Assembly: GCA_009192285.1 (NCBI GenBank)
Contig: CM018603.1
Span: forward strand, 5,391,613 to 5,455,612
Source of the DNA: Morchella semilibera
Taxonomy: Eukaryota; Ascomycota; Pezizomycetes; Pezizales; Morchellaceae
Reading direction: 5' to 3'
Length of the DNA: 64,000 nt
The stretch's first letter is position 1, and each line of letters starts with the position of its first letter. The position numbers and the translations under genes are program-made. Shown here piece after piece: positions 4,802 to 53,762 of this stretch. The notes below the pieces were generated by a model, which ran no database searches, was not told the DNA's origin, and saw nothing but the letters and a program-made list of their open reading frames with translations.

Positions 4802-7075
4802 GATGCCTTCCCCCTCCACCGGAACACTCCCCCCAGTGGAACAGGTCGTGGTTGGTGGATTTTGGCCTGGGTTGTATGGGGTGAGTTTGAGATCATCGTA
4901 CTATTAAAGAAGTGATCACTAACAAAATTCTCTAGGGAAGTACGAGTGTTTTTTCTATTCAGATCCCAAAATCAGCGTGTGCGATTAAGAATTCATTAAT
5001 GACCCGAAGCATCTTTGTATACATTAGAGAATAGATGTCTAGTATTCTATACCCTCAGCGCCTTCAGGATAGTTTGGCCATTTGCTGAAATTAGCCAACT
5101 CCATACCCTGAAACTGCGATTGGATTTGGTTTACTGAGTCCCCGATTTCTTCACTACTAGTAATACCTTTACTGGAACTGCCTCGCTTCCTTTTCTGAGC
5201 TTCTATATAGGCTCCTGTACATAATCTACTCGCTGTGGGTATTTTCCTTCTGTTGGGTTTTGAATGACGGATGCGTTCAAGCTCTAATAACTATTAGTAG
5301 GCAATATAGGAAATAATTTATTATTTACTGTTACCTTTCTGAGTCTTGTCTTTCTCATATCTCAAGAAGGAGATTTCTACCTGTTGTCTCTCTAGTTCTG
5401 CTTGCTGTTGATCCAAAACCTCGGATAGCAAATTGAGATTAGTGTTTGACACTGTTTCAGGATTGCGCTTTTGCTGTTCAAGGTGTGAACGTGCTATATT
5501 ATATGCGTCCACAAGTGGTTGTGACCAGGATTGGGGTGTCCAAGGACGAGGAGGTGGTTCAGGAATGCGTCGTTTTGCTGCTTCAGGATTAAAAGGCCAT
5601 GCGCCTGCTAAAGCAAAAGCTCGGCTACAAATTGAACCCTTACTATTAGAGTCCACTGTCATATCTCTGAAGGTTTTTTGACGGGCAGGCTCCAAAAAAT
5701 CCATAAAACTGTGTCTCCCAATTCCTATCTTACCATACCGTGAATGCTCTTGAACTTGTATGCCGTACCAATGCTGATAATGTCTGAAGACTTCGACATC
5801 TAATGGTTGAAGCAAATGGGTAGCGTGTGATGGAAGACATAAAACAATAATTTTATGATCCCAACAAAACTCTATTGCTTTCAGGTTCATATGGGCAGCA
5901 AGGCCGTCAACAAGAAGTAACCGCCATTGACCATTGGCTCTGTTTGAAATATATCATATATTAGTAAAATTATATATAATTATATGTAAAAATACTAGTA
6001 TTAAACATGGATTTTTACCTTTCAGTTGTATCAGGCTCAAATATATTTATTATCCAATCTGTATATAACTCGGAATCGATCCATCCTGATTCTGAGTATG
6101 CATACAAATATCCATTTGAATCTCTCCTAGACCATCCATAGTTGTGGTTTTAGCCTTTATAAATAATTAAAGGCCTTGCAACAAAATCATCGGCGGAAAT
6201 ACACTCCAATATTGTAACCATTTCTCTCGTTCCATCCTCAGCCAGCTCTGCTTGCTCAGGATAACCATGTTGTATAATTACTTTACACAACGCTGCTTCA
6301 CCAATACGAAAGCCTTTCTCATCTAGGTTGTAAAAATTCTGTCCTTCGATCGCAAATTCAATTAACACCTTCTTTAATTTTGAAAAGTAGTCATTGTACA
6401 TGTTGAGGTCGTGATTTGCAGTTGCGTGTGTATAGTGTAACCGTTTTGCATATTTTGTCTCGTAGAAAGCATGCCATTTTTGAAAATGCTTTGAAGTCCA
6501 GTTTTTTCCAACTTTTGCATTATCTATGCCTGTTTTCTGTTGTAGAATTCCGTTTGCGTATTCGGTAAAGATAGGAACAGTGACAGCAAAGTTGTGAGAT
6601 GTCATTCGATTGCATACTTCGAATAGGTATTTGGCTTCATTATCTAATTGCATGTCAGTATTCCTCCAAGTATCATAACCACACCACTTACCGGAAAGAT
6701 GTTGTCGCCTTTCAATATCCTTTACTTTATTTCTACCATCTCGCAACCGCATTGCAAGCGTGCTTGGCTTCACCAGTTCAAAGCAAGCGGCAGTCTTGCG
6801 TATAGAATTATATTCAGGTGCTGTCTTATACAACCGCTCTGCCTCTGCTAACTGATTCTCCTTCCTGAGAGTGAGATCGCTAATAACCATTTTGCTGAAT
6901 TTGTTGTCCTCGCTTGATAGTATAGAGCCTCATGGTTTGATTCCTTGGAAGCTGAACCTATACCAAGACTAATGACATATACTGTCTCAGAAACCAACCA
7001 ATCACGGCATCTGAAAACACTTGGGTCTTACTCTGTTCCACTGGGGGGAGTGTTCCGGTGGAGGGGGAAGGCGTC
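4802..7075 (-). mobile_element. Fot1/pogo-type DNA transposon with 43-bp TIRs
   Basis: A 2,274-bp element bounded by inverted repeats at 4802-4844 and 7033-7075 (GATGCCTTCCCCCTCC... with one mismatch in 43). It is flanked by TA dinucleotides at 4800-4801 and 7076-7077, the target duplication of Tc1/mariner/pogo elements. A single transposase gene lies inside on the minus strand. The intact ends and near-identical TIRs suggest a fairly recent insertion. It sits about 125 bp upstream of the kinase-ankyrin start codon and so probably inserted into that gene's promoter region. Confidence 0.92.
5321..6890 (-). pseudogene. Fot1/pogo DDE transposase with one in-frame stop
   Basis: Cut-and-paste transposase of the CENP-B/DDE_1 type. 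The start is the ATG at 6890. The N-terminal third has helix-turn-helix DNA-binding sequence (PSTLAMRLRDG; later NWTSKHFQKWH). The catalytic core follows: first Asp in YNLDEKGFRIG, second in LLLVDGLAAHM, third in LQPLDVEVF. An intron of about 80 bp (5942-6019) joins EPDTTE to RANGQWR in frame. A TAA stop near 6150, just after LIIYKG, interrupts an otherwise continuous reading (next NHNYGWSRR). The C-terminal ~190 residues end in a Gln/Glu-rich helical tail. Apart from that stop it looks whole, so it is a recently dead copy or a sequence error. Confidence 0.87.
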
Positions 7076-7199: not shown

Positions 7200-9770
7200 A
7201 TGGCATTCAAATCCTCGCAGGTTGAACACCTCAAATTGGTCGCCGAATTCATTGGCAAATCACGTTGCAAGCATACTATCGCCGGCCCGGGGGAGCTGGT
7301 AAGGTATGAAACCTGGACGAGGACCAAGCGACTTGGAGAGGGTGGGTTTGGTGTGGTTTATCAAGAGACCTGTTCAGAGACGAGGGATGTTAGGGCGGTG
7401 AAGCGGATCAGCAAATCATTGGCTATCAGATGGGACGAAGTGGGGATCTTGGAACAACTGCGCTCGGTAATCCTCCGTCAGCCCCGCTGAAACCGTGGAG
7501 GACTAAGTGCAATGGTTTACTAACGCCCCTATGTTCCCAAATTAGAATCCAGAGCACTTCGTGCAGTTAATAGGATGGTTTGAGGATAAATATGATGTTT
7601 ATTTGGCCATGGAATTCCTTCCGGGCGATCTAGGGGGACTACTCAAAGAAACTGGAGGTCTCAGTGAAAACGAGTCAAGAAGCGTTACAAAGCAGATTCT
7701 TACTAGCCTAGAAATCCTACATAAGAAGGGTATCTGCCATAGGGATCTCAAGCCCGGAAATATCTTGATTTCTAAATGGGCACCGCTTCGAGTAAAAATT
7801 GGCGACTTTGGCGTCTCTAAGCTTAAGGACCCCGACGGCAAGACCGAATGGCGAACCACCACAGGCACTACACCCTTCATGGCACCGGAGATCCAAGATC
7901 TCTCTACCTGCGATCAGGAAAGCAGCATATATACGACAGCAGTTGATATCTGGTCCTTGGGGTGTTTAGTGTACTTCATGATGACCAATACACTACCGTT
8001 CCCTCAGACTAAAGACCTGAAGAACCATATACATAATCGAAGTCAATTCCCACCCAGGACGGCCGTCGCACTGACTATCCCGGACTCAGCAGTTGGATTT
8101 CTGACTAGTTTGCTTCAGCACGTACCAGAAAAACGACCTCCGGCGTCGCAAGCTCTACTGCACTCTTGGCTTTCCATTCAGGAGCAGATCGACGAGGCAG
8201 GATGGGCGGATATATCCTCTGGAGCAGGTAAACCTGTCTCTGCGTCTGGACCTAACCAAAAGGTAGGCACCGCAAGCGACGCGGCCCCCGCAGCTGGAGG
8301 TAAATCGGCTACCAAAGACAAGCCGGGCCAAAAGAACCCTCGGGTTGCCATCACTGCTTGGAGAAGAGGTAAAATACCCTATATTCTGTACCGTTATCTT
8401 GCTGTTTCTGGTATACGAGAGTTGACTGAAGTTATAGACGCTCTTCAACACGTATTAGTGGCGGCTGCTGCGAGCGGCAATTGCGAGCTGCTTGTACAGC
8501 AACTGGGGAAGGGGGCAGGTCCTATGGAGGATCCTTCGGGATATACACCAATATACGTCGCTGCGAAGAATGGCCACCTCTCGATCATCAAACTGCTACT
8601 AGAGCACGGGGCCGATCTAGGCGTTGGGGTACTCATGAGGTCTCTGCGTTGCACGGGGCTACTAGCGCGGGAAAGCTTCAGATAGCTCAATACCTATTGG
8701 ATAAAGGTGCTGACATTTCGGCAAGGACTAAGGAGGGGTACATGGCTCACCATATCGCTGCACAAATTGGTGCCACTGAGGTGCTCCAGCTCCTGGTTGA
8801 AAGGGGGGCAGATATTTCGGCTTTGGGGGGAACACGGGGACGGACCGCTCTAATGTATGCTGCGTTCAATGGCCATCTGGGCGGGGCACGCTACCTACTG
8901 GACGGAGGTGCAGATATTTTGGCAAGGGATAACGAGGGGCGCATGGCTCACCATATCGCTGCGGAATTTGGTGCCACTGAGGTGCTTCAGCTCCTAGTTG
9001 AAAGGGGGCAGATATTTCGGCAACGGATAACGAGGGGCGCATGGCTCACCATATCGTTGCGGAACCTGGTGCAACTGAGGTGCTTCAGCTCCTGGTTGAA
9101 AGGGGGGCAGATATCGCGGCTTTGGGAGGAACACGGGGACGGACCGCTCTAATGTATGCTGTGTTCAAGGGCCATCTGGACGCAGCACGCTACCTACTGG
9201 ATAGAGGTGCAGATGTTTCGGCAACGGATAGCGAGGGGCAAATGGCTCACCACATCGCTGCACAATTTGGTGCCACTGACAGGTGCAGATATTTCGGCAA
9301 CGGATAACGAGGGGCGCATGGCTCACCATATCGCTGCACAATCTGGTGCAACTGAGGTCCTTCAGCTCCTGGTTGAGCGAGGGGCAGATAAATCAGCACG
9401 GGACACATCCGCCAGGAGATGCACCGCCCTAATGTATGCTGCGTGGGAAGGTCATTTGGACTCAACACGCTACCTACTGCAGGGAGGAGCAGATGTTTCG
9501 GAGGGGGCGTTGGTTAGTACGTTGGGTGCTTTAAAACTGGGATCGGAACGTGGTTATATCGATATAGTATGCCTACTACTGGATAGAGGGGCCTATACCT
9601 CTGTGGCGGCTGCGGCTGAGGAAGCAATGTCATTGGCTGCCAGCCAAGGTCATACGGAAATTGTGATGCTGATCACCGAGTGGTTCGAGAACGAAATGAG
9701 TATAGCTTCCACTGATCTGGGTAACCTCCAGCTCAATCAAGGACCCCTACTTAAACCGGTGGGTTTATAA
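7200..9770 (+). pseudogene. Protein kinase-ankyrin repeat gene, frame broken in the repeats
   Basis: Exon 1 7200-7466; 79-bp intron 7467-7545 with a CTAAC branch site; then a second exon. A further 69-bp intron is likely at 8369-8437, is phase 1 and in frame whether or not it is removed. The kinase is complete in motifs: glycine loop LGEGGFGVVYQ, ATP lysine in VRAVKRI, catalytic loop HRDLKPGN, DFG, activation-segment end GTTPFMAPE, and DIWSLGCLVYF. A low-complexity linker precedes at least seven ankyrin repeats. The frame changes near 8620 (one extra base), near 9005 (a G run one base shorter than in the sister repeat) and near 9280 (part of a repeat missing). Uninterrupted, it would be an 800-odd-residue Ser/Thr kinase that likely senses ligands through ankyrin repeats, as proposed for fungal NLR-like proteins. 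It may be a pseudogene or carry repeat-region assembly errors. Confidence 0.85.
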
Positions 9771-25678: not shown

Positions 25679-26728
25679 ATGACACTCGGGTATGCATACC
25701 ACCACCCCCTCCCACTCTCCACCTCCAGGCCCCCCCCCCACCCCCTCCTACCCACGACTAACAGCTCCCGCTCCATCCAGCTCCGACACCGCCACACTGC
25801 TGGTGGTCACCACCCATACGCTGAACCACCTAATGTCTCCCAGCCAACAAGCACCAGCGGTGCCGGCAGACGAGCGGAAGCGCGCCCTCGACCAGCTCAT
25901 GGTGACTGTCGAGGCCGCAGCAAAGCTCGCCGAGGTTGCGCAGCTCGACGCACTGTCGGCGCATAACACGTCGGGGGGACAGTGCGGGGAGACATTGAGG
26001 CACAGACAGAGATGATCAAGGCACAGACAGAGATGACCAAGGCCGAGACGGAGCGGCTAAAGGCCGAGGCGGGAAAGATCGGCAAGGAGGCGGAGAGGTC
26101 GGCGGCAGAGGCCGAGAGGCTCAAGGCGGATGCGGAAAAGGTGGGGAGGGAGGCCGAGAGGGCGGTGGCGGAGACGGAGCGGCTGAGGGCTGAGGCGCAG
26201 AAGGTCGGCAAGGAGGTTGAGAAGTCGGTGGCGGAGACGGAGAGGTTGAAGATAGAGCTAGGGAGGTTGGGGGGGGAGAAATTAAGGGTTGAGGCGGAGA
26301 CGGGGAGGCTGGGAGCGGACTTGGGGCGGTTGGGGGGTGAGAAGCTAAGGGTGGAAGCGGAGACCGAGCGGCTGAGAGCTGAGGCGCTGAAGATTGGCAA
26401 GGATGTTGAGAAGTCGGTCGCAGAGACGGAGAGGTTGGAGAGTGAGAAGTTGAGAGTGAAAGCCGAAACGGAGAGATTGAAGGCGGACTTAGGGAGGTTA
26501 GGGGGTGAGAAGCTGAGGGTGGAGGCGGAGACAGAGCGGCTGGGGGCGGACTTGGGGAGGTTGGGGGGTGAGAAGCTGAGGTTGGAAGCGGAGACGGGAA
26601 GGCTGAAAGTGGAGGTGGAGAGGGTGAAGAGTGAAAAGCTAAGGTTGGAGGGGGAGACTGGAAGGTTGAGAGTGGAGGTGGAGCGCGTCAAGAGTGAGAC
26701 GGAGCACCAAAGGGTACGCAAGGGTTAG
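25679..26728 (+). CDS. Tandem family member 7, long coiled coil, G-run frame change
   Basis: Mini-exon 25679-25689 (MTLG), 91-bp intron, exon 2 from 25781. The core is SDTATLLVVTTHTLNHLMSP, DERKRALDQLMVTVEAAAK, LAEVAQLDALSAHN. In the six-G run at about 25,973 the frame must change by one base to continue; otherwise translation stops at 26,015. In the continuing frame ~245 residues of coiled coil run to 26,728. They contain four copies of a 21-residue unit beginning GRLGGEKLRVEAET and blocks of KVGREAERAVAETERL type. The base change may be a homopolymer error, slippage or decay; the clean coil downstream argues that the whole is or recently was translated. Confidence 0.62.
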
Positions 26729-27241
26729 AGAAGAATTATTGTCTTGTCATGGGAACGCCCTCGGCGGCGATGTTTTTTGTTGTGTGACGGACATGGATTC
26801 TTTTTTGGGAGGTAACTATGATTTAGGAAATAAATGAGCATCAAGTAAATAATATATAGCTACCGTATAACATGCAAAGGTATTAGAGGCACATGTGTAT
26901 CTTTATATGTAGGTACAATATTACGTGCAGACTAGGGTCCCGTCAAATATACAAGAAACGCGGTTATAAACCAGTTATAAATTCAGGTCCAGCTGAGAGG
27001 GAGTAAGATACTACAGTAGGGTTAGGGGTTATTAAGCAATAAAATAGGAAGAGGGCACCAGTAACGGGAAACAAATCCGTTCCCCCAAACCTTCTAGTAG
27101 ACTGTTGCATGAAGACACACCCGCATTTCAGCTTGTGTCATCCGGCAGTTTCCAATAGCTTTAGTATTTCGCCCAGTTTGAAACACGGTCTCCAGTATCT
27201 CACTTTCGAAAACCTATGGAATAAGCCAGGGTACATAGTCT

Positions 27242-30257: not shown

Positions 30258-33200
30258 ATGGACCGCACCAAGAAGTGGTTAAGAAGAAGAATCCATTCGC
30301 GCAGTCAATCTTCGTTACTACAACCTACCCCATCTCCTACGACTGCTTCGGCAACTACACTCCAATCTCCGAGCGCGCAAGGCCTGGTATCGACGCCAAG
30401 ACCTGTCTCGGCCGCAGGGAAACTACAGACACCCCATCACAACTCAGCTTTGCTGGGAAATAGCACCGCCCATACCCATACCCTTGCGCCACCACCCCCC
30501 ACAGCCCCGCTCATAGCCGGACAAAGTCAATCTGTAGTTGGGCAAGGTGTTCTCCCGCTGCCTGGATCCGTACCTTCTATTACGGTCAATGGACCCCCGG
30601 GTCCCCCTCAAACAACCCAACAAGGTGGATCAAATACCCATAGTGTAAACAAGGTTGCTACCCAAAGTTGTATGATTTATATCCCAACGTTAGCCTTCTG
30701 ATATCCTCCTTTACTAGGCCGTGGCAAGCAATAACCCCCCGATTACACCGCCAGCTATTACCCAGGTACCTTCGCTATGGAAACAAGCTTTTGATAGGCT
30801 ATCGGAATGCGATGCAAAGCTGTTCATTTCCACCGACAGCAACAAAGAAGGCTTCTCCAGGAGCTGCTCGACGCTATCATGGCGCAAAGAGATATCTGTC
30901 AGCAGAATAGATGGAAGTTCAGGTTCCGGGGCAAGGAAATCATTGTACGGGATCTCGCTGATAAGCTACTTGATTGGGTTGATAAGTTCAAGAACATTGG
31001 GAACGTCGTAGCTTCCTACGACCCTTCGCATGCAGCATTACCTTGGGCTGGGATACGTTTTGTGCTACAGGTATGGTAGTGATAGGTGGGTAAATACATT
31101 GGGTGGTGCGTGCTAATATTACAACAGATTGTGCTCACTGACCGCGAGGCAATGGGTGTAATTATGGTCGGCATCGAGAGAATCGCGGGATTGTTAGTGA
31201 GAAGTTCGGTTCACGAGGAGCTCTACCTAAAGTCAAAGGTAGCCATCACCGGTCTGAAAGGTCTGGAAGCATCATTTGTCGAGCTCTATCATTCTATACT
31301 CCAGTTCCTTGCCTGTGCGAAGCAGCAACTTGAACGATCTACGACAAGTACGTCTGCAGGCAGCCCTCATCCCAGTGTAGCTTCTCCAATGGCTAATACC
31401 TCCTAAGCGAGAATGTTACGTACCATCCTAGACATAGAGGGAGGGAGGTCGTTGTTCGAGGCTATTGAAGAGAGAGAGAAGCTCTTGGAGATGGAGCTTA
31501 CAACTGCTGATAGAGAGAGTAAGGTCCTTTGCTAAAACTGCTTGTTCTCATCCTAAGTACTTACTGGTGGTGCCTATCAAGTTCAAATGCACGGTTATAG
31601 TGTAGCTGAAGGTAAAGTATATAGAATCTAGACAGGCTACCACATACTAAAAAACATTGACAGACCAGCACAATGAGGTAATGGTGTTTTTGAGAGGACT
31701 GGAAGACCCTATTTCAAGGATAGACCTAGGCTTAGCATCCATGTACAGCGAGATTCAGGGGTACAATCAGAGTGCGTCCCAGCCTATATCTCCCAGCACA
31801 AGTCTGAACTAACCCGTCAAAAACCTCCAGGGCAGGAGAGACTGAAGATATTGCAATGGATTTGCGATGCTAGATATATTGAACATCACAATCAGGCCAA
31901 GGGAAGCCTGTTAGACCGCACTGGACAATGGCTAATCAACAGGCTGGAGTTTCGGGATTGGCAAAACTCCAGTGCCTCGGGTATTTTGTGGCTTCGCGGA
32001 ATGCGTAAGTGATCTAGAGAACCATCTTTGTACGGTACTGACCTTCTTTACAGCGGGCGCAGGGAAGACGAAACTCACGTACAGGATCCTTACTCTCAAC
32101 CTGTCATTTTAAGCTGACTAGTTTACAGGTGCATGGTTATAGACCATTTAGCGTCCTCACGCCGTACATACGAGCCCGTGGTATATTTCTACTGCAACCG
32201 CAACGAGTCGCAACGCCGGATGCCAGAGGTTGTCATGCGTGCCATTGTTAAGCAGCTCTGTGTTGTGCTTCCTGATGATGACCGGCTACCACAAGTGGTC
32301 TTACAAGAATATAAAGCTCGGGAGCAAGGAGGGCTTGCAGCCGGCGATCTGAGCCTGCTGGAATGTGAAAGGTTGATTGTGTCGCTCCTCGATATACACC
32401 CGCAAACTACAATTATAATCGATGCTTTGGATGAGGTTTATCAAGAAAAGCGTTGGACATTAATATCCTCCTTGCAGAAGATAATAGTGCAATCCCCAAG
32501 CTTAGTTAAAGTATTCGTTTCGAGTAGGGACTACCTTGATATTAGCCTGACTCTTGAAGGCGTCCCAAATATGTATATTGAAGCGACGGATAACGGTGGG
32601 GATATCGCCCGCTACGTGAGGCGGGAAGTGCAAAGTGCAATCGACAACCGACGACTACTAGCTGGTAGAGTTTCAGAAGCTCTCAAAGCACAGATCATTT
32701 CTACCATTGAAAGTCAAGCAAATGGAATGTAAGTTATACTGAGTTCGCACTTTCTCATTTACAAACTAACCCTAAAAGGTTTCAATGGGCAGACCTGCAG
32801 ATCAAGCAACTGTACCAGTTGCGATTTGAGCACCAATTCATTAAAAAACTAGGAAAATTACCGAAGACTCTAGAACAGACGTACCTCGAAATATGGCATG
32901 AAATATGTCAAGAAGAAACGGAGATGCAAGAGCTCACGAAGAGAGCGTTGATGTGGGTAATGTGCTCCATGGAACCGCTTTCAAAATCCCTATGGGCCCA
33001 ACTATCCTATCGTAATACGAGAGTCGAACCACATGACCTTGAGCACCTCTTTGATCTCTGTCGAAACTTAGTAGTCTGGGATAAACAACTAAATAAGCCC
33101 ATATTTTCACATTTATCGGTTCAGGAATTCCTCGAAGAAAACATCTTCACAGAACGGGAGGCTCATGGGATGGCTGCTTACACCTGCATCTCATATCTAT

Positions 33201-36101
33201 CGACAAATGAGTCACAGCAGTCTTGGTCAGGGATCTATGAAGAAAACACGCAGTCTTCTGAGGACAAAGAGCGGAATATATATGTACGTTCATTTTGGCC
33301 TGATCACGTGGATGGCTCCTTTAATGAGGCAAATCCCATTGATCCGGGTCTTCTGAGGCTTTTGAATCACTTTCTGAGCCCCGGCTCGGATTATGCGACC
33401 AGGTCTTACCCAAGGATAGGCGACCGTTTCCCCTATCGCCATGCGAACGAGAAACGATCGGGATCGGGGGATTCACACAGATCCTGGCTTAGGGATAATC
33501 GAGACCCACTATTCGTAATGGCCTTTTTTCAATTTGGCGAAGAGATGGAGTGTCTTTGGCAGGAGATGATCTTAGGCGTCAACAGTAGGGGCTCACCTGG
33601 CGCCTTATTGCTAGCGGCAGTTTGTACTCGTCGGAGTCGATGGATGCTTGATTTCCTCTTGCAGCAGGGGGTTGGCTTTCATTTTGCGGAAGATTCCAGC
33701 CTAGAGCGCTATGAGCATACATGCCTATACACTGCGATCACGCACTTACAAGCTGAGGCGATCATTAAACTACTCGAGAGGGCAGCGGTACCTCCTGAAG
33801 GGGCGTTCGTACGATCTTGGTCTCACCCAATTGCTAGAGTTAATATCCTGGGGCATATTGTAGAATCTTCTCGCAACGACCTAGGCTGTCTTAAAAGTGC
33901 CTTGAGTTGGAACAGACTCGTATTCCTCCAGAACAGACAGATTACTATATGTAGGGATTCAGATGACAAATTAAATAACAATGGACAACAGCGGCATCCG
34001 CTAAACATATCCGAGTATTTTAGGATGTCCAGGGTCGTTTTGTTCACCGCACTGAGGGCAGAAAACGCTCGAGATATATTAGAGCTCCTATTTAGTTACT
34101 ACCCCCGCCTGAAGATTAATATAGGAATTCTCACCCAGGCCGTAAGAAGAGGTCTCAAGAGTATTAAGACGATTCAATACTTGCTTGATAGGAATGCCAG
34201 TCTGAGGGTAACCGAGCCGTTATTGGTAAGTGCAGCAGGGAACACGGGTCAAGATGTTGTGGGTTTTTAATCAATCGCGATGCGGGTCTGGAGGTTACCG
34301 AAGCGGTGTTTGTAGCAGCAGCAGCGAATATGGGGCGGGGTTTCGATATTATACAGTTCTTAATCAATCGCGATGCGGGTCTGGAGGTTACCGAAGCGGT
34401 GTTTGTAGCAGCAGCAGCGAACAAGTTTCAGGGTTCCGACATTATACAGCTCCTAATCAACCGCGATGCGGGTCTGGAGGTTACCGAAGCGGTGTTTGTA
34501 GCAGCAGCAGCGAATATGGGGCGGGCGATATTATACAGTTCTTAATCAATCGCGATGCGGGTCTGGAGGTACCGAAGCGGTGTTTGTAGCAGCAGCAGCG
34601 AATATGGGCGGGGTTTCGATATTATACAGTTCTTAATCAATCGCGATGCGGGTCTGGAGGTTACCGAAGCGGTGTTTGTAGCAGCAGCAGCGAACAAGTT
34701 TCAGGTTCCGACATTATACAGCTCCTAATCAACCGCGATGCGGGTCTGGAGGTTACCGAAGCGGTGTTGTAGCAGCAGCAGCGAACAAGTTTCAGGGTTC
34801 CGACATTATACAGCTCCTAATCAACCGCGATGCGGGTCTGGAGGTTACCGAAGCGGTGTTAGTAGCAGCAGCAGCGAACAGTTTCAGGTTCCGACATTAT
34901 ACAGCTCCTAATCAACCCTTCGAACCGCGTTGCGGGTCTGGAGGTTACCGAAGCAGTGTTGGTAGCAGCGAACTGGCGGCATGGTTCCAAAATTATACAG
35001 CTCCTAAACAACCGCGTTGCGGGTCTGGAGGTTACCGAAGCAGTGTTGGTAGCAGCAGCAGCGAACTGGCGGCATGGTTCCAAAATTATACAGCTCCTAA
35101 TCAACCGCGTTGCGGGTCTGGAGGTTACCGAAGCAGTGTTGGTAGCAGCAGCAGCGAACTGGCGGCATGGTTCCGAAATTATACAGCTCCTAATCAACCG
35201 CGTTGCGGTTCTGGAGGTTACCGAAGCGGTGTTAGTAGCAGCAGCAGCGAATCAGCGGCGGGGTTCCAAAATTATACAGCTCCTAATCAACCGCGTTCCG
35301 GGTCTAGAGGTTACCGAAGCGGTGTTGGTAGCAGCAGCAGCGAACTGGCGGCAGGGTTCCGACATTATACAGTTCTTAATCAACCGCAATGCGGGTCTGG
35401 AGGTTACCGAAGCGGTGTTGGTAGCAGCAGCAGCGAACAAGTGGGAGGGTTCCGACATTATACAGTTCTTAATCAACCGCGATCCGGGTCTGGAGGTTAC
35501 CGAGGCGGTGTTGGTTGCGGCAGCTTCGGGCGGCCACGATCCAACTGTGCAAGTTGCCGGGTCAGCAGCAAAGGGGGACAGTAAGTGGATTCTCAAACCC
35601 ACCTTTGATCAGCCACCAAGTCTCAATCCTCCTTAGTTGACACGCCTAGTAGAAATATGGAAGAACTATCTTTCTCCTGAGACTTTAGAGCTGCTCTTTG
35701 ATCGAGATCCAAATCTTAAGATTACGGAGCCCGTGATGATAGCGGCAGCATCGAGCACGCTCAGTATTGACATTTTCATGTGCTTTTTTCGTCACGATCC
35801 AAGTCTGAAGGTTACTGAGCCCACATTGCTGGCAATAGCATCAAACGAGGACGGTGACGACACTATGGAATTCTTGTTCAACTACGGCGCTGTCCTAGAG
35901 ATTTCGAAAGCTGTAATTTTAGTTGCAGCGGAGGTCTGGTCTGGGTACCACGGACTTCCAATGTTTATGATGCTGCAGCATTGTAAGGATTTGGCGTTCA
36001 CGGAGAGTGAGCTGAAGAGGCTCAGGTCTAGTGAATATAAGGAAACGATCGAGGAATTCTTAGGCGGTGGGAGGGAGGATGGATGTTACCCAGGTTACTA
36101 G
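30258..36101 (+). pseudogene. NACHT NLR-like gene with near-identical C-terminal repeats, frame broken
   Basis: Fungal NLR (STAND) gene. Exon 1 from ATG 30,258 (Ser/Thr/Pro-rich leader) to about 30,644; exon 2 from 30,718; exon 3 from 31,128; further exons to 36,101. The N-terminal domain is the common fungal NLR type (ADKLLDWVDKFKNIG ... YDPSHAALPWAGIRFVLQ). The NTPase has Walker A LRGMPGAGKTKLT (split by an intron at 32,0xx), Walker B TTIIIDALDEV and sensor FVSSRDY, then a winged-helix-like LWAQLSYR ... HLSVQEFLEE. The C-terminus is a repeat array (34.2-35.6 kb) and diverged repeats to the stop. One frame break lies near 30,845 and several in the repeat array. Family role: intracellular recognition and regulated cell death. 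Whether this copy is dead or has indel errors cannot be decided here. Confidence 0.82.
34200..35520 (+). repeat. ~96-99-bp tandem repeat array in the NLR
   Basis: About 14 copies of a unit encoding GLEVTEAVLVAAAAN...IIQLLINR, plus diverged copies before (34,206) and after (about 35,720 and 35,812). Middle units are almost identical at DNA level; outer ones share only the VTEP..IAAAS pattern. This ankyrin-like VTE-repeat type is common in fungal NLRs. Units differ by occasional single-base gains or losses that shift the frame. Confidence 0.9.
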
Positions 36102-47175: not shown

Positions 47176-47397
47176 TGCTCCATTGCACGGGCCACGGTTT
47201 TATCCGGGGTTTTTCTGGGGGCGGCAGCGATAAGGGGATGTGGATGGGGGTGGGCGTGGGCGTGGGCGTGGGCGTGGTGGGTGGTGGGCGTGGTGGGTGG
47301 TGGGCGTGGTTAAGGAGGGGGAGGCGAAGGGTGATGTGCGGTAAGTACGGGGGCATTTACAGACCACTTCGCCAAAAAAGGTCAACGCAACGCAACG

Positions 47398-47440
47398 CAA
47401 CCATCAACCATCAACCATCAACCATCAACCACCATCATCA
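47398..47440. repeat. CCATCAA microsatellite
   Basis: About five copies of a 7-bp CCATCAA unit just inside the left TIR of the large transposon. Confidence 0.8.
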
Positions 47441-47502
47441 GTCATCAACAACAATCACTAAAGAGGTGCTAGAACAAGTATTAATCACTCTATTCAATCA
47501 GA

Positions 47503-47960
47503 ACTTGATGCTAATAAGTTACCCAGCTCCCTACTGCTTCCTGCTGCCGAGATTTTGCGCCGAGACCCGCCGAGACTTTGTAGGCATTGGCTTATCCCTC
47601 TAGGGCTTGATGCTAATAAGTGGCCAGCTTCCTACTGCCTCTTACTGCCGAGATTTGCGCCGAGGCCCGCCGAGACTTGGTAGGAATTGCCTTACTACTT
47701 AGGAGCCTGTTGCTAATGAGTGACCAGCTTCCTACTACTTCCTGCTGCCGAGAATTCGCGCCGAGACCCGCCGAGACTTGGTAGGAATTCCCCTGCTACT
47801 TAGGAGTCTGTTGCTAATGAGTGACCAGCTTCCTACTGCTTCCTGCTGCCGAGAATTTGCGCCGAGACCCGCCGAGACCTGGTAGGGATTATTCTATTAT
47901 AGCAGGTTTAGATGCTAATAAGCAATACAGCTTTCTCCCGCTACCTACTACTTCTACTAT
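47503..47960. repeat. ~101-bp minisatellite, about 4.5 copies
   Basis: Tandem units beginning GATGCTAATAAG / GTTGCTAATGAG at about 47,507, 47,609, 47,709, 47,811 and 47,909. Each has CTACTGCTTCCTGCTGCCG and CGCCGAGACCCGCCGAGAC. It sits between the left TIR and the first gene of the large transposon; subterminal repeats often bind transposase, which is inference here. Confidence 0.8.
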
Positions 47961-48374
47961 TTATCACTCGCTACTGCTTAGATTAATTGATAAGGTTTGT
48001 TTCCCCGTCTGAAGCAAACTCAGTGTGATTTTACTCGTGGGGACCTTTGGCTTTTTCCTACTATGTAGGTCATGGCTCAATACTGTGGTTTGGTAAAGAG
48101 GGATCAGACTTAGTCTGTTCATTCAACCTCTGAACCGGGTTTGATGCGTGGTTTCCTATACACGTTGAAATTCATTGGAATTTCTCTTGGGTTTTATTAC
48201 CTTTACCGTTTATCTGTAATAGATCGGTGTCCCCCATGGTTCCTTTATAAGTCCTATATGGCATTATACCATGATGAACTACGGTTCAATTTATTGAATA
48301 CGAGTTGGAGTTGATCATGATGGGCGTGTTTGAGTGAAAATTTGTTAGACTAGTCCGCTGATAAATTTTTTCAG

Positions 48375-49583
48375 ATGGATAGTACTAGCATCGATACCAA
48401 CCAACCGGTAATCAGCAATTATGATATTGATAATGTTGAATTCCTTCTCAAGTCCGGTGCCTTTACCCTAAATAATATAGGCTATGAGGTCAAAGGGCAA
48501 GCTGAGTTGCGCAAGCATGTGGTGCGGTTCCAAAAGAATTGGGAAAAATCTAGAGTAAATTTGGAAATTATCAAAGTTCCAATTAAATTGGGTACATTGA
48601 TTGACAGGGCAAAAACCAAAAAGCTTCCTACTATCGTCAATCAAAATCAAGAGAATCTGAAAGGGACGATTGATTCATTTCAACTTATCAAATCCTCTCA
48701 ACATCCTGTTCAACTTATTGATCCTGATGGCCGTGTACTTGGGTATAGGTGGAGGATTGAGGAACGTTACCTACATACACTTACAGCTTCCGATAAGCAA
48801 CTTCCAATTCACAAGAAAAAATCAGATGTCACGAGTAGGGGCATTAAAGATGCACGTCACTATGCTGTTTGGAGAGATTTTTCAAGAGATTTGTTCCAAA
48901 GTTCTGAATGGGAGAAAGACAAAGACAAGGGAGGAGAGAAGTGGCGGATAGCAAACCTTCCATTATTTCAACGGCTATCAAATGAGCTGCGTATGCTTGA
49001 TCCAGTTATGTTCCTACAAGGTTCTAACTTTGATATGGAAAGAAATATTTCTACTCGGGTTGGGCATGAAAAACAGTCAAAAATCAGTAGCTTTGCTGGA
49101 GCATGGCATGGAGTTGCAATCAATCGTCAGCAATCCTATGATGGAGGAACTCATCAGGATTGGCAGGATTCAAACTTGATGTTTAACGGAGTCATGCCTT
49201 ACGGTCAATTTGGAGGAGGAGATTTATTGCTTTGGCAATTAAAGATCCGACTTGAAATTCATCCTGGTGATGTATTCTTCTTCCTGGGTTCCATTATCGC
49301 TCATAATATTATCGATATTACTGGAGAACGTTTCAGTATCGATGTCTTTACCCACAAAAGTAATTTTGATTGGAAGAAGACTGTTGATAAAGGAAGAAAT
49401 AAAAAGCCAGTCAATAACAGAACTCAACCAATTCGAACTCGTCAACAAATTACGGAATGCGAGGAAAAAAAGAAAAAAGGGGATAGTAAAAAGGAGTTGG
49501 AGAAAAATCAAAATAAGATTAGACGCGAGTATAAGAAAGAAGTTAGAAGAGAAATGAATGGTGAAGTAGCTAAATTCTTTTAA
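48375..49583 (+). CDS. TET/JBP-like 2-oxoglutarate/Fe(II) dioxygenase (402 aa)
   Basis: Predicted DNA-base oxidase; TET/JBP enzymes hydroxylate 5-methylcytosine or thymine using Fe(II), O2 and 2-oxoglutarate. The double-stranded beta-helix core is at about residues 235-330: iron ligands H260 and D262 (GGTHQDW) and H310 (IIAHNI), 2-oxoglutarate-binding R319 (GERFSID). The family's GGxL and PGDVFFF strands (FGGGDLLLW, HPGDVFFFLG) lie between. The N-terminal 230 residues are basic and helical; the C-terminal 75 are strongly Lys/Arg-rich (ITECEEKKKKGDSKKELEK), a possible nuclear/DNA-binding tail. ATG 48,375 directly follows a TTTTTTCAG acceptor-like run, so a 5' leader intron is possible. It lies inside the transposon, tail to tail (70 bp) with the accessory gene. 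Base preference (5mC or other) cannot be told. Confidence 0.83.
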   Translation: MDSTSIDTNQPVISNYDIDNVEFLLKSGAFTLNNIGYEVKGQAELRKHVVRFQKNWEKSRVNLEIIKVPIKLGTLIDRAKTKKLPTIVNQNQENLKGTIDSFQLIKSSQHPVQLIDPDGRVLGYRWRIEERYLHTLTASDKQLPIHKKKSDVTSRGIKDARHYAVWRDFSRDLFQSSEWEKDKDKGGEKWRIANLPLFQRLSNELRMLDPVMFLQGSNFDMERNISTRVGHEKQSKISSFAGAWHGVAINRQQSYDGGTHQDWQDSNLMFNGVMPYGQFGGGDLLLWQLKIRLEIHPGDVFFFLGSIIAHNIIDITGERFSIDVFTHKSNFDWKKTVDKGRNKKPVNNRTQPIRTRQQITECEEKKKKGDSKKELEKNQNKIRREYKKEVRREMNGEVAKFF

Positions 49584-49653
49584 TTGTTATTTTTTTTATC
49601 TCTCAACGGAAGACAGTTCATTTTATCTTGTTAAAAATAAGTCTTCTATACTA

Positions 49654-51338
49654 TTAACATGAATGTGATAGATTCTTTTCTCCTAATGAACCTCCTTCCT
49701 TTTCCTTCTTTTTTGATCTCGTACTCCAGGCTGGGGGATCTGCAAATGGATCGGCAGATATATTGTCAAGTTGTTGAGAAAACTCTTTGCTTGACTTTGA
49801 GTTTGTCGTGGGTAAAGATAATTGATGTGTTGGCATTCGATCAGTAAGTTGAAAGGTACTTAAACGGAATAGAGGTGAGGTTGAATTTCTATATATGTTG
49901 AGGTTACTGAATGAGGGTCGGTGTTTGAAATTGTTGGTTGATAAACTCAAATCCTTATCAACGTCATACTTGCTCGCTACTTCCTAACCCATAATATATA
50001 CAGTCAGTTAATATATAAAAACTATAAAGATACATAAGAGAGACTTACAGTTTTGGACGGAACCTTTTCAGTTTCACTATCGATAGTTGAATCTTCTGTT
50101 CCTGCCGATGAAGAACTACTTATCGAAGGTTCACGTTTGACTCGTGATTCAAACAATTCAAAGTCAAACTTCTCCTGCTTTACTTTTTTCTTGATACTAT
50201 TTGGCTCTTCTTTTATTGGAATAGATCGCTTTCGTTTTACTAATTTTCATATAATCATTATTAGGGTTCAAGTTTGAGTATGAATTTTTAGTATTCAAGG
50301 CAGAATAATACGTACACTTTTGAGGTGATTGGTGATCTGCCTCATATCCTTCTTTGATCTCTTTTATAATTTCTTCGACAATGATATGTATCCGCCCTGC
50401 ACCTACTCCAGTACCGGATGGAAAATCTCTCAAAAAATCACCGACCGTACCTGGTTCAGTTGAACGTGTTTCGATGTAATGAGGACCTTCTTTTTGATGG
50501 AATCCAGTGGCAAGTGTTATAGTTGATACAAGAGTATTACTTGGTAGGTCTTCTTTATAGTTTCGTTTTTGTCGTTTGCACCATTCGATCCAGGCCATTG
50601 ATTTTCCAAGTAGCTCTTGTCTAATATAACAATCAAGTGTTATATTTATAGGTTCATTTAAATTCGGAAAATGCTTGGTCGATATACCTATAACAATATT
50701 AGGAAACTATGAAATAGATTTTATGATGAAAACATACCGACTTGAGTGAATTGCACCCAATAATCTTTACCCATACGGGGCCATGTTTCTGGCACCCCAA
50801 CATACCAAATAGAAAGTTTACGGGTATCCGATGGTTTCATCAACTCTAAACCAGTACGAACTGCTGTTTTTGTCATTGCTGATGGAGGAGGTGGTGAAGA
50901 TAAGCCATATTTGGAACCAGTCATTCGTGATTGCTTTTCTACTTGGGATCGTTTAATTGATTGCTGTCTTGCTGATTCTATAATAATACGACTTGAATAG
51001 ATAGACTGACCTATATTTCCAACCGCAAGAGGTTTTTCCTTTTTAACATTTGCAAATTCCGAATCGGATTCGCTAGAAATAAGATTTATAACAGGTGCGT
51101 TGAGAGTGTGCTTGCCTTTGTGCTTCCGTGAGGTACGTTTTGTAACCGCGTTCTTTTGCATTTTTATGTTTGAATTTTCCCCTTTGATCATATCCGTTGA
51201 ATTATTAAGCTTCAAAAATGAAGGAACAAGTTTTCCACAACATTCATATCGCAGGTCAGCACTTGCTTCATGCAATCGTTCCTCTATACTTTGCGAACAC
51301 CATTGTCCAGCTTCTTTCTCGTTGCGAATTGATGACAT
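49654..51338 (-). CDS. Transposon accessory protein with SUMO-type motifs (497 aa)
   Basis: complement(join(49654..49983, 50049..50239, 50316..50687, 50738..51338)). The three introns (50, 76 and 65 bp) have GT-AG ends and keep the frame. Seen in the protein: a Cys-containing N-terminus (LRYECCGKLVPSFLKL), a SUMO-interaction-like VINLISSESDSE at about residues 83-94, and five psi-K-x-E sumoylation-type sites (IKGE, VKKE, IKEE, VKQE, VKRE). There is a basic KRKRSIP nuclear-signal-like stretch and a central folded part (IWYVGVPETWPRMGKDYWVQF ... LLGKSMAWIEWCKRQ). I know no family for it. It is divergent to the transposase with a shared 282-bp promoter gap. Likely a nuclear helper for transposition or chromatin targeting (inference). 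Confidence 0.7.
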
Positions 51339-51620
51339 CGATTGATAATGTTATACGATAAAAAAAAGAAATATGTTTGAGGGGTATGAAAATAATATGG
51401 TGCGTTGTTGTATTGGAAAAAAATTTTCTTGTTACTCGACTGACAAAACCAACTTAAATATATTGTTGCAACGATAAATGCTAGTGATAATCTGTGACTC
51501 GGTTAGAACTAGCAATAGGGTTAACCCTTTATTAGCAGTCACAGCAACATATTTTCAATTATTTTACAATAATATATTGTCGATTTTAACAACAGTTTGA
51601 AGGGCTCAGAATTGGGAATA
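51339..51620. promoter_or_regulatory. Shared bidirectional promoter region in the transposon
   Basis: 282 AT-rich bases between the divergent accessory and transposase start codons, with several TATA-like ATATATT words. No specific element is recognisable. Confidence 0.4.
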
Positions 51621-53444
51621 ATGGGTCGCAACTCGATCAATTTGGAGCAGTACAAGCCGCTTATCGAAGATTTATACTTGAAAGATGAGAAATCATTAAT
51701 ACAAGTAACAAAATACTTAAATGAATTGGATATTCATTGTTCGCAACGTACACTATCAAGAAAGCTTCAAGAGTGGAAAATGCAAAAACTGAAAAAAAGA
51801 TCAAACGATACCCCAGCTCTACGGGTTCAAATTAGTTATCTTTTTTGGATTCAAAATTTAAATGATACTGATATGCTTCGAGTATGTTGTTCTTATTGCT
51901 TTTATTTAATCTTTCTTTCCGTATTGCGTATTAATATATATAAATAATAATATAGGTACTTCAACTATCAGGACACTCGATTGAAATGCGACGACTGCTT
52001 CGGATTAGACAATCAATGGGTTTAATTAGACGAACAATTACAAGAGATCTTGATACAGCCAATGAACGCTTAAGAGATGTTATACGAGAAGAATTGAAAC
52101 GGGGAAATATTGTACTTTCTGGTCATAGAGCTGTTTGGGCACATTTGCGGAGTCTTGGAATTATTGCTTCAGCGTAAGTAATATCTTTAAATATATACAA
52201 TAATCAATCTTTTTAGTTAATTTACTGATTTGAACAAAAGGCAGAGGATACGACAAGCTCTTTTAATTGTTGATCCTATGGGAGTAGAAGCACGTAGGAA
52301 AGACGTTAATCGAAAACATGCATATTTCACATGTCCAGGACCTAATTGGTGTTGGAGTATTGACGGTCATATGAAACTTCAAATGTTTGGGTTTGAAATT
52401 TATGCAGCCATTGATGCATATTCACGGTATATAATATGGTTTTATTGTGGAATATCTGCAAGAAGTGGTGTGAGCGTTTTAAGTCAATTCATATCTGCTG
52501 TAGTAGAGCACCAAAAATTTCCGCAATTCCTTCAAGCAGATAGGGGTACCGAAACCTTAATGATTGCTGATGGTCATTGGGATCTTCATAAAAGCATGGA
52601 ACCAGAGATTCCATTATCGGATGTGTTTATGTACGGAACCTCTACTAAAAATGTACGAATTGAATCTTGGTGGGGTCAACTAGCGAAGGGAAAAGAGATT
52701 GAATGGAAGGTATAAAGAATACTCTTTTTTATTTCATCTGCGCAGCTAATATCTAATTATTTATATATTAGAGATATTTCGTTGAACTCCAAAACTCAAA
52801 TTTATTTGATGGTTCAGATGCCGATACTATATCATTACTATATGTTTATATGCCTATTGTACGGGAAAAACTTCAAGGATTTGTTGAATGGTGGAATCGT
52901 CACAAAATTCGCAAACAGAAAAATCGTCCTAATTTGCCGACTGGAACTCCATGGCATAATTACTATTTTCCAAAGGATGGAGTTGATGATTTCAGTCATA
53001 TTCCTACAGATAAGGCAATTTCACAACTAAAAGAACGTATTGGTAATTATGGTATGAAAAATTTCAAACTTTTATTGATAAATTCTAATATAATTATTAG
53101 ATCATGATATATATCTTCCAATCGATACAATGAATTGGTGTGCAAATATAGTAACAAAAGCGGGATTTAAACTTCCTGTTACCTACGAAGCTCGTGAAGC
53201 AGATAATACCCGATCGCATTTTGCAATTTATTGTTCTTTAAGAGCCAATGTACGGAATCACATATATGTGAAAGGGAACAGGAATCCATCTCTTCAACGT
53301 ATTCCTGTTCCTAAAGAAGGCGATTATCCAATTGGTAACGCAATTGATATTATAAGGAGAAATGGTATCAGAGTGGATGTAGAAGAACCGTGGGGTTCTG
53401 GTTCTGAAGAATCTGACGATTATGAGTCTCAAAATGAGCTGTAA
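51621..53444 (+). CDS. Integrase-core (rve-type, DD40E) transposase, 523 aa
   Basis: join(51621..51881, 51956..52173, 52241..52709, 52772..53051, 53101..53444); all introns are 49-74 bp with GT-AG ends and the five exons join in frame. The N-terminus is helix-turn-helix-like (QVTKYLNELDIHCSQRTLSR, then RRLLRIRQSMGLI). The RNase-H-fold core has Asp in WCWSIDGHMKL, Asp in FLQADRGTET and Glu 40 residues later in KNVRIESWWG, with YAAIDAYSRYIIWF between. These are features of integrase-core transposases found in fungal and animal genomes. The C-terminus ends acidic (GSGSEESDDYE). No stops or frame breaks, so catalytically plausible. The ATG at 51,621 is the first in frame. It is the likely mobilising enzyme of the surrounding TIR element. 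Confidence 0.85.
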
Positions 53445-53762
53445 AATAAAAATAAAAATTATTATTTTTTCCGGCTCCCGGGCCATTTTACCATATTGGA
53501 TCCTTCTATAAACAAAGCATTTTATATAAAATACAGAACTGTTTAAAATATTTGCATTATAAATAGTTTTTTTTTTATTGTGGGTTGATTATGTTGTGGT
53601 GCGGCTTGGTATGACGCTGTTGCATTGTTTTTTTTTTTTTTGGCGAAGTGGTCTCTAAATGCCCCCGTAGGTAAGCGAGAGTTATAACGAGTTGTTGGTT
53701 GATGGGTTGCCTGATATTAACTGCTCCACAACACCGACAACAGCAGCTGCAGTGGCATTACA

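Follow-up and report, generated by a model that had tools for sequence, protein, structure and literature searches.

The window analysed here is a stretch of 64,000 nucleotides from the fungus Morchella semilibera (assembly GCA_009192285.1, contig CM018603.1, positions 5,391,613 to 5,455,612 of the forward strand). A transposon spanning positions 47346-53669 of this 64-kb window holds three open genes between the same terminal inverted repeats (TIRs), and a good deal favours reading it as a complete-looking, probably autonomous fungal cut-and-paste transposon of the IS3EU type, whose TET-like enzyme would oxidise 5-methylcytosine (5mC) on the silenced copies of the element itself. Judged by its TIRs, target-site duplication (TSD), termini and transposase, the element fits IS3EU, and at the level of sequence it is a variant of the TET-carrying IS3EU families already published, from which it differs in gene order, in the third gene and in the HxD motif of its dioxygenase (PMC12730594). 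The coordinates of its features are given in Table 1.

Table 1. Features of the transposon, in positions of the 64-kb window
Feature	Position	Strand	Basis or remark
Target-site duplication GGTAAG, left	47340..47345	+	letters compared at both element edges
Left terminal inverted repeat, TACGG...	47346..47379	+	33/34 identical to right TIR
Left subterminal array of a GC-richer 101-bp unit in 3.8 tandem copies	47509..47890	.	upstream of the dioxygenase gene
TET/JBP-like 2OG-Fe(II) dioxygenase, 402 aa, single exon	48375..49583	+	sub-threshold Tet_JBP match, TET chains in PDB, residues
Protein X, 497 aa, four exons, without known domain	49654..51338	-	gene model
DD40E rve-type transposase, 523 aa, five exons	51621..53444	+	modelled exons, Pfam, triad
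Right terminal inverted repeat, ...CCGTA	53636..53669	-	partner of left TIR
Target-site duplication GGTAAG, right	53670..53675	+	same 6 bp as left side

The boundaries of the element were well defined. An earlier reading of the sequence alone had described 34-bp TIRs and a 6-bp duplication, and both were recovered at the expected edges, with the similarity between the TIRs reaching out to 51 nt at 84%. The 28-nt core of the TIR (up to 3 mismatches) occurred at two sites in the 64 kb, and at two sites in none of 100 shuffles; the first 14 nt alone (up to 2 mismatches) matched only the two TIR sites in the window, a result equalled in 8 of 100 shuffles. The GC content of the element was 37%, compared with 48% in the remaining window. 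The tandem-array region (47523-47915) reached 54% GC, and the motif GCCGAGA was found 11 times at 47546-47877, at the left end of the element only; the 101-bp array and the GCCGAGA repeats could perhaps serve as transposase-binding or promoter repeats. Dinucleotide indices for the whole element (CpG observed/expected ratio 0.87, TA/AT 0.79, (CA+TG)/(AC+GT) 1.25) were set beside those outside it (0.79, 0.89 and 1.17, respectively), and decay of the whole element resembling repeat-induced point mutation was rejected on the basis of these values and of thresholds that we take to be the usual ones. A G-rich minisatellite (47234-47310) lies directly to the left of the insertion site.

The same sequence-only reading had proposed three open genes with one or several exons and an rve-type, DD40E, IS3EU-like transposase, and on both points the analysis agreed with it. 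The transposase was modelled from five exons (51621-51881, 51956-52173, 52241-52709, 52772-53051 and 53101-53444) separated by four GT-AG introns of 74, 67, 62 and 49 nt, one of them with an AAG acceptor; like the splicing of protein X, this is a gene model derived from sequence. Its best-supported Pfam assignments were rva_4 ("Integrase core domain", E 2.5e-30) and an N-terminal Clr5 domain (E 3.2e-8), with rve itself under the Pfam cut-off (E 0.0034), and the NCBIfam matches to IS481 (8.4e-8) and IS3 (5.9e-7) were likewise under the cut-offs of that collection. The catalytic triad was placed at D201, D260 and E301, with 40 residues separating the last two, that is, DD40E. Published IS3EU elements are described as having TA..TA ends and a TSD usually of 6 bp (PMC10045372), and, for the families from Pucciniales, a 6-bp TSD, TIRs longer than 30 bp and TAYGG..CCRTA termini (PMC12730594). 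The element shows TIRs longer than 30 bp, TACGG..CCGTA ends, a 6-bp TSD and an rve-type DDE transposase related to IS3/IS481. A literature search for Clr5 together with transposase, fungi and rve showed no paper with Clr5 among the matches listed. Weak matches of the transposase to Arg_repressor (0.083), IS630 (0.064) and two more NCBIfam families (0.088 each) were discarded, as were the two PDB matches, both of them DHT03 protein A by name (best E 0.013).

The dioxygenase gene occupies 402 codons of a 409-codon open run; when the element was resampled 500 times under a first-order Markov model, no run exceeded 198. Tet_JBP was the best Pfam match of the whole protein (E 0.0076, residues 257-328), and the only family found among 24736 when the core (residues 230-345) was searched separately (E 0.0015), both matches being below the cut-off; among nine control sequences (eight shuffles and one reversal), Tet_JBP was retrieved by none and any match at all by one (E 0.17). 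Searches of PDB with phmmer gave TET dioxygenases as 4 of 7 listed matches (two NgTET and two CcTET), both for the whole protein (best E 0.048) and for the 110-aa core (best E 0.0098). The profile searches for rve and Tet_JBP that had been proposed along with the sequence-only reading were divided in outcome, with rva_4 above its cut-off, and rve and Tet_JBP (whole protein and core) below theirs. The TET/JBP-like identity claimed there was supported by the residues, by Tet_JBP as best family and by the TET chains in PDB, and came out weaker than claimed in view of the sub-threshold profile score; from the profile match and the conserved residues, the protein is probably a relative of the TET enzymes. 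Weak matches to TMP_4 (0.49) and AmcC (0.1) were discarded.

The residues placed as catalytic were H260, D262 and H310, forming the HxD...H iron triad, and R319 as the 2-oxoglutarate (2OG) arginine. In the alignment with the 4lt5 chain, H310, R319 and H327 fell on positions 285, 295 and 303, and F325 on 301, and an offset of 6 turns these positions into H279, R289, H297 and F295 of NgTET1, where H279 and R289 are the names that we assume for the first two. The C-terminal half of the active site was placed by alignment; H260, D262 and D265 were placed by spacing, with the HxD inside the Pfam match, and this spacing equals that of His326, Asp328 and Gly331 in CcTET (PMC12730594). In NgTET1, F295 and H297 touch 5mC (PMC7854593, PMC11040006), and Gly331 of CcTET corresponds to NgTET1 Asp234, a position at which an aspartate is said to block N6-methyladenine (6mA) (PMC11040006, PMC7854593). 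Since D265, F325 and H327 appear to occupy the places of NgTET1 Asp234, Phe295 and His297, we infer 5mC as the predicted substrate; D265, being at the Asp234 position, would hydrogen-bond N4 of 5mC and disfavour 6mA.

In the proposed mechanism, the transposase would bind the element and excise it, while the TET-like enzyme encoded by the element would oxidise 5mC on silenced copies; these copies could then be transcribed and moved, escaping methylation silencing, and protein X would serve as an accessory factor, possibly via the host SUMO machinery. Such self-demethylation is plausible and is backed by the residues described above. If true, transposons with a DNA-demethylating enzyme of their own would offer a direct test of selfish DNA countering methylation silencing, and, with all three genes open and an NgTET-like pocket, such a copy would be a good candidate for enzymology.

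Several results weigh against this explanation. A second copy of the element was not found inside the window by TIR pattern, blastn or tblastn, so that mobility rests on the TIRs and the TSD; a blastn match of 29 nt (E 0.008) and a tblastn match to the dioxygenase (33446-33571, E 0.13) had been considered as further copies and were discarded as chance. The Tet_JBP scores (15.9 bits for the whole protein, 18.3 for the core) were below the curated cut-off of 34.9, unrelated chains occurred among the TET matches in PDB (5dmp ranked third with the core), and a single-sequence AlphaFold2 model of the dioxygenase (mean confidence, pLDDT, 32.9) was uninformative on the fold. No counterpart of NgTET1 Asn147 and Arg224 was placed in the dioxygenase, and the residue 11 positions after the first histidine (H+11) is N271, where conventional TETs have Thr/Ser and CcTET has Asp. 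The dioxygenase coding sequence alone had a CpG observed/expected ratio of 0.69, below the 0.87 of the element, and a (CA+TG)/(AC+GT) value of 1.47; the lower CpG ratio makes some past methylation-linked mutation possible there. Finally, protein X has no recognisable domain, whereas the published TET-carrying IS3EU families carry an alpha-kinase gene.

A different outcome of the same chemistry deserves to be weighed, namely that the element is an IS3EU transposon whose dioxygenase acts on another base or leaves a lasting mark (stable 5-hydroxymethylcytosine (5hmC), oxidised thymine or 6mA) instead of erasing methylation. The core is just distantly related to the characterised TETs, and this option is kept open by Kojima 2025 for the PU and PE types (PMC12730594); yet D265 at the Asp234 place, and N271, unlike Asp337 of CcTET, argue against 6mA, and not against thymine or stable 5hmC, and we consider the idea rather unlikely overall. 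It also seems improbable, to a greater degree, that the dioxygenase is a passenger, a captured gene of no use to the element. Its location at the left end, outside the divergent pair formed by X and the transposase, would agree with this, and the single copy in the window gives no basis for comparing copies; on the other hand, the 402-codon frame has been retained with its placed catalytic residues, the GC content of the gene (38%) is near that of the other two (34.5% and 36.7%), and captures of this kind are reported in many families (PMC12730594). That the gene encodes some other 2OG-Fe(II) enzyme, or is TET-like by chance, agrees with the sub-threshold profile score and the poor structure model, but is very unlikely given that the core found Tet_JBP alone in Pfam while no control did, and that phmmer recovered NgTET and CcTET separately.

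The self-demethylating transposon proposed here can be compared with systems in print. The sequence-only reading had described the pairing of a TET enzyme with a transposase outside the Kyakuja-Dileera-Zisupton (KDZ) group, and novelty of such a pairing is not supported: Kojima 2025 describes TET/JBP genes carried by 11 lineages of DNA transposons, IS3EU included, hosted by Pucciniomycetes, Agaricomycetes and Pezizomycetes, and the pairing itself is therefore already in print (PMC12730594). The role proposed in that paper is escape from methylation-based silencing, which is an inference there too (PMC12730594). TET-carrying IS3EU elements are known from rusts (Pucciniales) and from Tuber indicum (IS3EU-1_TuIn), and all TET-carrying IS3EU families of that paper have their TET/JBP gene flanked by the transposase gene on one side and an alpha-kinase gene on the other (PMC12730594). 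The present element resembles them in combining an IS3EU transposase with a TET/JBP gene and a third gene opposite to the transposase, and shares with the Pucciniales families the 6-bp TSD, the TIRs longer than 30 bp and the TAYGG..CCRTA ends. By contrast, as far as the published layouts can be compared by description, the order here is TET-like (+), X (-) and transposase (+), with X in the middle, and no alpha-kinase domain was detected in X (Pfam, up to E 5). Because gene order and third gene differ here, the comparison suggests that IS3EU elements may have acquired TET genes more than once. In a literature search for IS3EU with alpha-kinase, Kojima 2025 alone was retrieved; the present layout was not searched for beyond that.

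The dioxygenase itself also departs from the described types. HxE is the hallmark of the PE type, to which the Tuber IS3EU belongs, and HHpred reportedly gave this type just a weak similarity to TET/JBP enzymes (CMD1, e-value 1.4) (PMC12730594), whereas the motif here is H260-Q-D262, or HxD; an HxD enzyme in a filamentous ascomycete would depart from the PE pattern. In IS3EU-1_TuIn the TET/JBP domain has a large N-terminal deletion, unlike the gene described here, which is open over 402 aa. In the AG type, position H+5 holds Gly/Ser and position H+11 holds Asp (Gly331 and Asp337 in CcTET) (PMC12730594). With the TET-carrying Kyakuja/Zisupton elements (AG type, such as CcTET of Coprinopsis cinerea), the element shares a transposon-borne TET/JBP enzyme with HxD, but its transposase is outside the KDZ group, and D265 and N271, placed by spacing at H+5 and H+11, differ from Gly331 and Asp337. 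Its likeness to NgTET1 of Naegleria lies in the F295 and H297 positions (by alignment) and D234 (by spacing), although similarity was found over about 56-69 residues only and Asn147 and Arg224 lack a placed counterpart. Assignment to the PU type is possible.

Protein X was modelled on the minus strand from four exons (51338-50738, 50687-50316, 50239-50049 and 49983-49654) with three GT-AG introns between them (50, 76 and 65 nt); an alternative last intron gives 496 aa. Searches against Pfam and NCBIfam gave no family up to E 5, alpha-kinase included; 13 PDB sequences, 10 of them named nanobody (best E 0.018), were taken as chance, and AlphaFold2 without relatives gave a pLDDT of 41.9 for 123 residues of exon 2. 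X contained five [VI]KxE motifs, where its shuffles averaged 0.44 and none of 5000 had as many; the wider pattern [VILMF]KxE likewise occurred five times (mean 0.89; 11 of 5000 had as many), while the transposase and the dioxygenase contained no [VI]KxE. A single motif with an acidic run, VINLISSESDSE, resembled a SUMO-interacting motif (SIM) (260 of 5000 shuffles had as many), and the plain SIM pattern was not enriched (2 against a shuffle mean of 3.80, reached by 4453 of 5000 shuffles). These motif types, picked after inspection of the sequence, we take to be SUMO-related, and X is possibly an accessory factor, perhaps working with the host SUMO machinery, which we offer as a lead only. A bolder version, in which an IS3EU lineage would have independently captured a fourth-type TET (HxD, NgTET-like 5mC pocket, neither PE nor AG) and paired it with X as a SUMO-directed adaptor (through the five [VI]KxE sites and the SIM-like VINLISSESDSE), so that one element would both erase cytosine methylation and engage SUMO-dependent silencing, seems decidedly unlikely.

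Searches of other collections, which have little bearing on fungi, gave three pattern-matched stretches for the dioxygenase in viral contigs, three for the transposase in viral contigs and 23 for the transposase in bacterial/archaeal contigs, none of them confirmed by tblastn; the TIR pattern had no match in viral contigs. A weak match to a PHROGs membrane protein (0.11) was discarded. Scanning the window for Rfam families and tRNA genes gave no matches.

Ten of the 40 open frames of at least 150 codons in the window were run against Pfam. The NPHP3_N, kinase and ankyrin, HNH_2 and DDE_1 domains among them would, in our judgement, suit a filamentous ascomycete. The element is flanked on the left by an open reading frame (ORF) with ankyrin repeats and a sub-threshold F-box-like match, and on the right by an HNH_2 ORF. 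At 5324-6929 on the minus strand, a DDE_1 ORF (6.4e-9) and an adjoining ORF without Pfam match represent a second transposase, presumably pogo/Fot1-like. At 7546-9767, adjoining open frames encode a protein kinase domain and, after it, ankyrin repeats. At 32118-35633, an NPHP3_N ORF, a second ORF that matches GPIID_WHD below the cut-off and then a tandemly repeated coding stretch likely represent a NACHT-type gene. The stretch at 25900-26725 is repetitive, with long open frames on both strands, and GC skew reached 0.52 at 26001-27000.

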